NCBI RefSeq assembly: GCF_014349105.1
Contig: NZ_JACSJI010000003.1
Span: forward strand, 62,001 to 126,000
Reading direction: 5' to 3'
DNA: 64,000 nucleotides
DNA from: Caulobacter sp. 17J80-11
Lineage (GTDB): Bacteria; Pseudomonadota; Alphaproteobacteria; Caulobacterales; Caulobacteraceae
The notes beneath the pieces are model-generated. The model worked only from the letters and a program-made list of their open reading frames with translations, was not told the origin of the DNA and did not search any database. The position numbers and the translations under genes were made by a program. This document shows, piece by piece, positions 19,044 through 20,061 of this stretch. Position 1 is the first letter of the stretch; each line of letters starts with the position of its first letter.

Positions 19044-19247
19044 TCAAAGCCCCAGCTTGCGGGGGTCGATCCGGCTCCGCCGGGCGGGCAGTTCGGCCAT
19101 GATCTCGGCCCGGCGCTCGGCGGTCAGCTTCGCCCAGCCGGCGATCTCCGGAAGGGTGCGGAAGCAGCCCAGGCAAAGGCCGCTCTCGCCGTCGACGGCG
19201 CAGACCTTCACACACGGGGTGACGATAGGGGCGGGGACGGGGTTCAT
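19044..19247 (-). CDS. DUF1289 small Cys-rich protein
   Basis: A 67-residue protein with the DUF1289 pattern: TPCVKVCAVD, CLGCFRTLPEIAGW and a C-terminal KLTAERRAEIMAELP helix. The four Cys residues (CxxxC and CxxC) probably bind a metal. The role is unknown. The reading frame, the length and the absence of alternatives support a real gene. It reads away from the unusual 19.25-20.04 kb region, so its promoter must lie just right of 19247. Confidence 0.9.
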   Translation of the reverse strand: MNPVPAPIVTPCVKVCAVDGESGLCLGCFRTLPEIAGWAKLTAERRAEIMAELPARRSRIDPRKLGL

Positions 19248-19259
19248 GTCCGTAAGTGA

Positions 19260-19450
19260 TCGAAGCTAATGTATGATCGCCCTAAGTTTTCCGGGCGGCG
19301 CGGGCAAGCCTTGCAGGGAATTAACTTGTCCCGGCGGGGCCGTCGCGCGAAGTTGTTCTCAACGGCGTCGGTGGTTGTATCGAGCATCCCGACGTACGTG
19401 TTCTTGCTGGTTTCCTCAAAGCCCCGGCCCGCGCCGGGGCTATTTTTTTT
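19260..19450 (+). ncRNA. Candidate small RNA ending in an orphan intrinsic terminator
   Basis: The strong plus-strand terminator at 19420-19450 follows no plus-strand gene: the nearest one, at 17608-18327, ends over 1 kb upstream, beyond two opposite-strand genes. Something transcribed rightward must therefore start within or before this stretch. Directly before the terminator is GGTTTCCTCAAAG, whose UUUCCUC could pair with ribosome-binding sites. TTGTTC at 19353 and TTGTAT at 19375, spaced 16, could be a weak promoter giving an RNA of about 64 bases. The 5' end is not established, so the left boundary is only the limit of the gene-free region. The call rests mainly on the terminator. Confidence 0.4.
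19420..19450 (+). terminator. Strong intrinsic terminator without an upstream gene
   Basis: AGCCCCGGC at 19420-19428, loop CCGC, GCCGGGGCT at 19433-19441, then A and eight T residues (19443-19450). This is the most canonical terminator in the window. On the minus strand the hairpin is followed only by TTTGAGG, so it acts rightward. Confidence 0.92.
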
Positions 19451-19582
19451 GCGCGTCGCGCGGCGAGGCGCGGGGACCTGCGGTGACCTGAATTCACGCT
19501 TTCGCGCTGAAATGCGCGCTTTGGCGCCGGACGAGGTTCTCTGTAACAAGTTGTTTCGTCGCGGAAATCTCGACAATCCCCA
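19451..19582. other. Gene-free stretch between orphan terminator and leader
   Basis: I see no convincing gene here. It begins with a GC-rich run of CG-containing palindromes (GCGCGTCGCGCGGCG), then turns more AT-rich. Short self-complementary pieces such as GCGCGC and GGCGCC occur. The reading frames crossing it have no ribosome-binding site and atypical codon use. Confidence 0.4.
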
Positions 19583-19591
19583 CGCAAAAAA

Positions 19592-19623
19592 TTGATGTTT
19601 TTTGATCCGAACCCGGATTAATT
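19592..19623 (+). promoter_or_regulatory. Possible promoter for the structured leader and mini-ORF
   Basis: This is an AT-rich island in very GC-rich DNA, with A and T runs. TTGATG at 19592-19597 and GATTAA at 19616-19621 are spaced 18 bases and could be a vegetative -35/-10 pair. A second TTGATC lies at 19602. Transcription would then start near 19628, giving a leader of about 120 bases before the ATG at 19747. Confidence 0.4.
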
Positions 19624-19746
19624 CTTGTCAATTTCGCGCGCGGCGCCAGAGTGAGTGTCGACGCGCCAGACGACTGGGAGGGTGAAAGTCCCTGGGAGCC
19701 GCGACGTGTCTCTTACTGGCTTGACCGGCTGGCTTAGGAGACGCCG
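19624..19746 (+). promoter_or_regulatory. Structured 5' leader with a stem over the ribosome-binding site
   Basis: The leader contains a CCAG-ACGA-CTGG tetraloop hairpin (19666-19677), then AGGG-TGAAAGT-CCCT (19679-19693). A third stem pairs GTGTCTCTTA (19706-19715) with TAGGAGACGC (19735-19744): ten consecutive pairs including two G-U, with a 19-base loop. Its 3' strand contains the whole GGAG ribosome-binding site of the ORF at 19747. The ligand-domain-then-sequestering-stem layout is like a translational riboswitch or thermosensor. It matches no riboswitch class that I can recognise. The pairings were worked out by eye. Confidence 0.5.
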
Positions 19747-19887
19747 ATGAAAGACAAAGACAAGAACATGCAGCACGCGATGTTCTCGTTCGCCTTGCTG
19801 GGAGGGCTGCTGGTCGGCTCCAAGGGCAAGGACAGGCTTGGTGGCAGGCCTCTGGACTTCAGTCCGCTCCCGCGTAAGCCGCGCTAG
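19747..19887 (+). CDS. 46-residue putative small membrane protein
   Basis: The ATG is preceded by TTAGGAGACGCCG, with AGGAG correctly spaced. The protein starts with a charged stretch (MKDKDKNMQHAM), then a short hydrophobic segment (FSFALLGGLLVG, about residues 13-24), then a basic tail ending PRKPR. This looks like a single-pass or membrane-associated small protein. Its codons are less biased than those of neighbouring genes (AAA, CTT, GGT, CCT and AGT occur), so it could be a poorly expressed gene or a chance ORF. No family is recognised. The structured leader upstream is the main reason to believe it. Confidence 0.5.
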   Translation: MKDKDKNMQHAMFSFALLGGLLVGSKGKDRLGGRPLDFSPLPRKPR

Positions 19888-19925
19888 ACCGTCTTCGACG
19901 TGCTTGCAGCGGACCGCCCCGGCCC

Positions 19926-19965
19926 CCGGGCCTGATCCGATCCGCTTGGATCGGATCAGGCCCGG
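19926..19965. repeat. Perfect 18-bp inverted repeat
   Basis: CCGGGCCTGATCCGATCC at 19926-19943 and its exact inverse at 19948-19965 enclose the loop GCTT. It is the longest perfect stem in the window. No T-tract follows on either strand, so it is not a textbook terminator. It could stop Rho-dependent or weakly paused transcription of the mini-ORF, or stabilise its mRNA end. Confidence 0.8.
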
Positions 19966-19979
19966 AAGTCTCGGAGTGA

Positions 19980-20026
19980 GCGCATTTTCTTCGCCGAACC
20001 GTCGGCCACTTCGGCGAAAAATGCGC
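19980..20026. repeat. Second palindrome after the mini-ORF
   Basis: GCGCATTTTCTTCGCCGAA at 19980-19998 pairs with TTCGGCGAAAAATGCGC at 20010-20026 apart from a two-base CT bulge, with an 11-base loop. It lies 14 bases after the perfect 18-bp palindrome and 35 bases before the hydratase start. Confidence 0.7.
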
Positions 20027-20061
20027 TAAGGCCGGGCTTTCGTATGTGCGGAGCGCGCGCC

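Follow-up and report, generated by a model that had tools for sequence, protein, structure and literature searches.

A conserved leader RNA of Caulobacteraceae with two mutually exclusive helices, probably a translational switch ahead of a mini-protein gene

Translational riboswitches that sequester the Shine-Dalgarno sequence (SD) have exclusive folds that share a strand, with the SD hidden in one of them, whereas RNA thermometers such as ROSE and 4U hold the SD in a stem with G-U pairs adjoining the start codon. Guanidine-II (mini-ykkC) RNAs consist of two hairpins with ACGR loops. We analysed a leader in a 64,000-nt stretch of the Caulobacter sp. 17J80-11 genome (hereafter the window; all features lie on its forward strand) that resembles each of these in part. 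The arrangement of exclusive folds is common to this leader and to SD-sequestering riboswitches, as are a 5' domain whose purine-rich internal loop is conserved and a terminal loop that varies. It differs from them in having no Rfam match, in preceding one ORF family nearly always, in an internal loop that is shrunk in some genomes, and in being confined to one bacterial family in the samples searched. The thermometer-like stem is also present, but the anti-SD strand is here contested by a conserved strand lying upstream; to our knowledge, thermometers need neither such a decoy nor an aptamer-like loop.

A preliminary description of the locus, made from its sequence, had reported two small hairpins in the leader, the first with an ACGA tetraloop. 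Direct reading finds both in the window (CCAG-ACGA-CTGG at 19666-19677 and AGGG-N7-CCCT at 19679-19693). The second, which contains helix P2, is conserved, but the first is not: among 100 aligned leaders it occurs only in the window and in L010, from the sister genome, and in relatives the ACGAC bases are part of an inner helix, P1b. The tetraloop closed by 4 bp recalls mini-ykkC, a reading that we rejected on this distribution and on the lack of an Rfam match.

Like that description, which could assign the leader to no riboswitch class, we found no known counterpart. Rfam 15 (4227 families, curated thresholds) gave no match in the window, a lax search of 19230-20050 gave a single overlap with the leader (WT1-AS_4, 12.7 bits against the 60 required), and none of the six matches at E<=1 in 14 relatives fell on the leader. 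Among the matches listed from the open-licence literature, none described the leader or its peptide. A study of C. crescentus (PMC4117421) reports 94 new, mostly small coding regions and sought riboswitches through Rfam.

Two helices that compete for one strand

The 10-bp stem previously proposed to hide the ribosome-binding site is present, and the positions given for it and for the other elements all proved correct on direct reading and folding. Its anti-SD strand GTGTCTCTTA (19706-19715) pairs with the SD strand TAGGAGACGC (19735-19744), two G-U pairs included, and covers the SD AGGAG (19736-19740). The stem appears in both the minimum free energy (MFE) and the centroid fold of the window leader; folding also places an upper hairpin of 6 bp between its strands (19716-19732, loop 19722-19726), which is variable among relatives. 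The ATG of the 46-codon ORF follows at 19747, and the ORF extends to 19887. Taken alone, the window leader barely folds better than its shuffles (z -0.88 and -1.45; 35/200 and 16/200 shuffles equally good), and it is conservation across leaders that places the SD stem above chance.

The preliminary description lacked the upstream strand GACGCG (19660-19665), which pairs with CGTGTC (19705-19710) to form helix P1 and is the element that would make the leader a switch. Five of the bases that it pairs with, 19706-19710, are also needed by the SD stem, so that the two helices exclude each other; GACGC of the P1 5' strand repeats GACGC of the SD strand. Inside P1 lie P1b (5' strand CGACT, 19671-19675, with A19673 unpaired; 3' strand AG-C-CG, 19697-19701, from alignment reading), a 4x4 internal loop (RNGA, 19676-19679; UGNR, 19693-19696) and P2 (GGG, 19680-19682; CCC, 19690-19692), whose terminal loop (19683-19689) is variable and reaches about 30 nt in some Asticcacaulis.

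We aligned 100 leader loci (A5) and held out 24 more leaders, mostly lower-scoring and mostly from genus g3, together with ten ORF-only loci, 27 of the hold-out being counted. A further alignment (A6) comprised 49 sequences, the window plus 48 of 74 distinct aptamers, with duplicates and long loops removed. By comparison, the leader, both helices, the strand that they share and the linked ORF are conserved. The constant parts of the 100 leaders, each with exceptions, are GACGCG, ACGACU-RNGA-GGG, CCC-UGNR-AG-(C)CGC, CGYGUCUCUU and, ahead of the start codon, AAGGAGACGC; the variable loop lies between the second and the third. P1 is formed by GACGCG with CGYGUC and the SD helix by GYGUCUCUU with AGGAGACGC. 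Over P1, P2 and part of P1b 98.7% of 1098 cells are paired, and in the SD helix 99.1% of 891, with 10 double-change cells.

As the leaders are related, we used a tree-based null in which each column evolved independently, with its own number of changes, in 1000 runs on a tree built from the very alignment tested. Broken cells were rarer than expected in P1 (5 observed, 25.8 expected; 14/1000 runs as good), in P2 (9 and 39.1; 7/1000) and in the SD helix (8 and 43.8; 5/1000), and P1b as a helix found no support (33 and 36.5; 568/1000). Double-change cells were not significant in any helix, null runs reaching the observed number in 310 (P1), 116 (P1b), 115 (P2) and 62 (SD helix) of 1000.

The canonical pairs are near-constant, with 0-7 inferred changes per column, and no such pair is significant singly because they hardly vary. 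In a tree-aware scan of all pairs (60 null alignments), only columns 26/92 fell below E 0.05, the next pair, columns 18-100, having E 0.067. Columns 26/92 correspond to G19676 and G19696, with which the 4x4 internal loop begins and ends; they are G.G in 45 and A.A in 48 of 100 leaders, and identical purines in 93/99, a figure that 0/1000 null runs reached (null maximum 84). The strongest covariation in the leader is thus a non-canonical purine pair in an internal loop.

Column 107 sits in both helices, with column 12 as its partner in P1 and column 155 in the SD helix. The triple 12/107/155 reads G/C/G in 79 of the 100 leaders, G/U/G in 9, G/U/A in 8, G/U/C in 2 and A/U/G in 1, with one gap. 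In the hold-out, leader L160 (genome G138) has GACACG, CGUGUC and GGAGACAC, giving A/U/A: all three strands are changed, A-U-A for G-C-G, and both pairings are kept. GACACG occurs solely with CGUGUC (L080, L201, L160), and in L080 and its relatives L200 and L201 the SD strand and its partner have been rewritten jointly. The complementary SD strand is also kept in L082 and L083 despite extra sequence between the strands; these two are miscounted or uncounted in the SD measures because the true SD strand lies outside the aligned part of A5. L029 and L110 break one pair in both helices because they carry CGCAUC at the shared base, and in L035 and L085 the SD helix is broken at column 155. The hold-out counts of 226/243 and 159/162 are rough, since strands were misplaced by the script, the SD strand in four leaders (L153, L154, L156, L201) and the P1 strand in one (L200); by eye, L153, L154 and L156 have 9/9 SD pairs.

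Energies were computed for both states, leaving aside the non-canonical loop and any ligand. The state with P1 enforced averages 2.2 kcal/mol above the SD-paired state, which is the lower one in 79/100 leaders. Enforcing P1 reduces the mean SD opening energy from 5.1 to 2.7 kcal/mol, and the cost drops by more than 2 kcal/mol in 56/99 leaders and increases in 0/99. P1 takes the opening energy of the window leader from 7.4 to 4.2 kcal/mol, with a probability of 0.05 that the SD is unpaired; it is mostly paired even with P1, and full opening in this species therefore needs more than P1.

Distribution, losses and the linked mini-protein

Searches with the 46-residue protein and with 299 bases of DNA matched 8/60 and 10/60 genomes, the own genome counted. 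We built a covariance model (R1) from twelve oriented loci that aligned over the leader; at E<=0.01 it matched 217 of 390 Caulobacteraceae genomes, in 10 of 22 genera. Eleven weak matches (E 0.0014-0.0098; two of the 11 read) were set aside, which leaves 206/390 genomes with strong leaders. A profile of the mini-ORF matched 212/388 family genomes, again in 10/22 genera, in a sample not identical to that used for the leader. Comparison of the lists gave 202 genomes with both, 4 with the leader only and 10 with the ORF only. A direct search found the ORF in two of the four leader-only genomes (G149, G158), nothing in G288 and a match no better than chance in G304 (E 0.031), so that the mini-ORF family is present in 204/206 strong-leader genomes. 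That the ORF lies directly behind the leader was checked in the aligned loci; for the remaining genomes the figure is one of co-occurrence within the genome. The absence of stem and ORF from close relatives, which the preliminary description would have taken as refutation, is not what we found, and the layout of a translational switch that it proposed is supported by a leader conserved in Caulobacteraceae.

We accepted no homologue of the leader outside this family, either in the order-level sample searched with R1 or among 385 genomes of the class searched with an aptamer-only model (R2). R1 matched 55/299 genomes of the order and, among the matches listed, all those below E 1e-6 are in Caulobacteraceae. 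Twelve matches lay outside the family (best E 3.9e-6) and were rejected as homologues after eight of them had been read: three are at the beginning of a gene which, from its sequence, we take to encode ribosomal protein bL9, and the other five, by eye, are without the ACGACU-loop region. R2 matched four genomes of the family and one outside; the latter (E 0.005 per genome, with about two such expected over 385) was judged on reading to be chance, and a second R2 match in G012 (E 0.015) was also dropped, the rest of the leader being missing.

The ten ORF-only genomes include three with diverged leaders (G123, G131, G219), two with the switch deleted and five with it replaced or reduced. In G247 (L204) and G268 (L203) all sequence that separates the 5' GACG from the GACG repeat in the SD strand is gone and promoter, SD and ORF remain, which looks like a deletion between short repeats. 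G291 keeps the SD hairpin without the 5' domain, and G273, G347, G396 and G096 have other leaders ahead of a retained ORF. The gene is thus kept without the leader in some genomes, and the switch is therefore an add-on to a gene viable without it. Loop variants occur as well. Four leaders of genus g14 (L006, L140, L086, L087) have an enlarged P2 terminal loop, and as their inserts differ, the tip of this loop is variable.

By a motif rule 94/100 leaders are followed by the mini-ORF, and by eye four more are (L037, L143, L082 and, its start changed, L083). The remaining two, L114 and L134 (G288 and G304, genus g22), are full leaders before an unrelated 38-residue ORF (MTIQVHVPTASDQFERLYKV...); either the switch was re-used or the ORF was replaced. 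The mini-ORF is under purifying selection, with a pooled pN/pS of 0.17 (14 chosen pairs, uncorrected distances). The family has a QHAMxSFALxGG-like core followed by a basic, proline-containing tail. The protein carries a 15-residue hydrophobic stretch (Kyte-Doolittle mean 1.85), most of which is held by the one helix of the predicted model (residues 3-23; mean pLDDT 69.6, a modest confidence), and on these two grounds it is likely to be located in the membrane. Nothing worth keeping was found for it in Pfam (0/5 proteins), NCBIfam (one match, E 0.13, in 1/5), PHROGs (1/19, E 0.14) or PDB chains (none at E<=1). SidA is a small inner-membrane protein of Caulobacter; the mini-protein can be likened to it in being very short with one hydrophobic helix.

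A probable two-state switch and its alternatives

Comparative sequence evidence shows the leader to be a conserved regulatory RNA, in our view a new family among RNAs of a familiar type. Because its helices compete, a cis-acting two-state translational switch is the best explanation, and we consider it probable. For this switch we infer a polarity, a promoter, a start site and the existence of an effector. The RNA would begin at or beside GACGCG (19660). In the ON state, P1 would close a 51-nt hairpin domain (P1, P1b, the purine-rich 4x4 internal loop and P2) and remove half of the anti-SD strand, making the SD easier to open; in the OFF state, the same bases within GTGTCTCTTA would be base-paired to the SD strand, preventing initiation. 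OFF would be the default, and ON would follow on stabilisation of the 5' domain. As OFF is the lower state by computed energy in most leaders, something should stabilise this domain for ON. Given such a switch, a small molecule or ion is a real possibility as the effector, at close to an even chance; temperature or folding kinetics alone seem doubtful, and a protein or small RNA (sRNA) rather unlikely.

Two criteria for a riboswitch can be compared with the leader. That two mutually exclusive helices can form, the SD being hidden by one of them, is conserved, as both comparison and computed energies indicate. As for a conserved aptamer core, there is a conserved loop with purine-pair covariation, yet this internal loop is shrunk in L153, L154, L156 and L161, which would be difficult to reconcile with a ligand pocket of fixed form. 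Conserved loop and covariation speak for a ligand and the shrunken loops against one; the genomes that retain the ORF without the leader also count against a strict ligand pocket. We therefore put forward only tentatively that this is a new riboswitch class, found only in Caulobacteraceae, in which a 51-nt aptamer is built round the covarying homopurine pair and a metabolite or ion turns on a mini-membrane protein. The shrunken loops would suit a bistable RNA that responds to no effector and serves as a thermometer or folding timer, as would L209, which has the SD hairpin only and no 5' domain, and the lower energy of the SD state (by 2.2 kcal/mol on average). In the timer version, P1 would form first, the SD would be briefly free and the RNA would then drop into the stabler SD-paired state, and the order of the sequence is such that P1 is complete before the SD strand is transcribed. 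A bare timer, however, would have no need for purine-pair covariation or for the conserved ACGAC and AGCCGC within the 5' domain, and we regard the effector-free reading, like its timer version, as unlikely.

Proteins can bind at internal loops that are rich in purines and contain G.G or A.A pairs, and the loop here could be such a site. A protein, perhaps the mini-protein itself with its basic tail (net +5 beyond the hydrophobic stretch), or an sRNA might bind the 5' domain or a competing strand. Autoregulation is hard to reconcile with L114 and L134, whose leaders precede the unrelated ORF in genomes without an acceptable mini-ORF match, and the one upstream sRNA-like pattern looked for was found only at the window, which argues against an sRNA; control of this kind appears quite unlikely. 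If the SD stem just kept translation low, GACGCG would owe its conservation to something else, such as a role in the promoter or as the first bases transcribed. Its near-invariance, its place at the predicted RNA 5' end and the few events on which P1 covariation rests would be consistent with such static attenuation, but GACACG is found only with CGUGUC in three leaders and broken P1 cells are rarer than under the tree null, and we hold this explanation to be improbable.

As a two-state translational switch, the leader would be a conserved and compact device with three-strand logic in a family with members used as laboratory models, linked to a conserved mini-protein family for which we found no annotation. 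Were the trigger a metabolite, the ligand would indicate the pathway of the mini-protein; were it temperature or folding kinetics, the leader would offer a clean natural case of a decoy strand at an mRNA 5' end.

Flanking sequences

By eye, and with the upstream regions of relatives for comparison, a putative -35 element (TTGTCA, 19625-19630) was placed ahead of a weak putative -10 element (AGAGTG, 19648-19653), a placement that would set the RNA 5' end near 19660. Many relatives, also by eye, have TTGnnn, about 17 nt and then a CATATT-, CATAGT- or TATATA-like hexamer. Just 5' of the -35 is a palindrome, ATCCGAACCCGGAT (TCCG-N4-CGGA, 19605-19618), which upstream comparison suggests as a possible operator. 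Within about 80 nt 5' of the 100 leaders, exact TCCG-N4-CGGA occurs once in 62, twice in 3 and not at all in 35; with up to one mismatch, at least one copy is present in 96/100 and two in 25/100. The palindrome is retained in the switch-less loci L203, L204, L207 and L208. In the own genome, ATCCGAACCCGGAT has three exact copies, a longer pattern of palindrome plus TTCTTG is mismatch-free solely at this locus, and ATCCG-N4-CGGAT is found at six places, none of which beyond the window's has a clear promoter partner. No promoter emerged from a strict consensus scan, which classed the palindrome as terminator-like, within chance expectation.

Among the 24 usable loci out of 29, some of which share a genome, gene neighbours have little in common across genera. 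ORFs of one homologous group, taken from their sequence for a putative enoyl-CoA hydratase, follow in the window, L013, L014 and L017; the downstream gene points to no pathway. Upstream of the leader, 19396-19456 resembles the suhB/mmgR sRNA family (19.5 bits, 41 needed) and ends in a terminator-like stem (19420-19441); among 99 loci with sufficient upstream DNA, this pattern is seen in the window only. Downstream, two strong hairpins at 19925-20030 (Rfam naRNA4, 25.9 bits, under the threshold of 59.5) form a dispersed REP-like repeat, with 15 matches in the own genome at E<=0.001, reverse self-matches counted, at about ten separate places.
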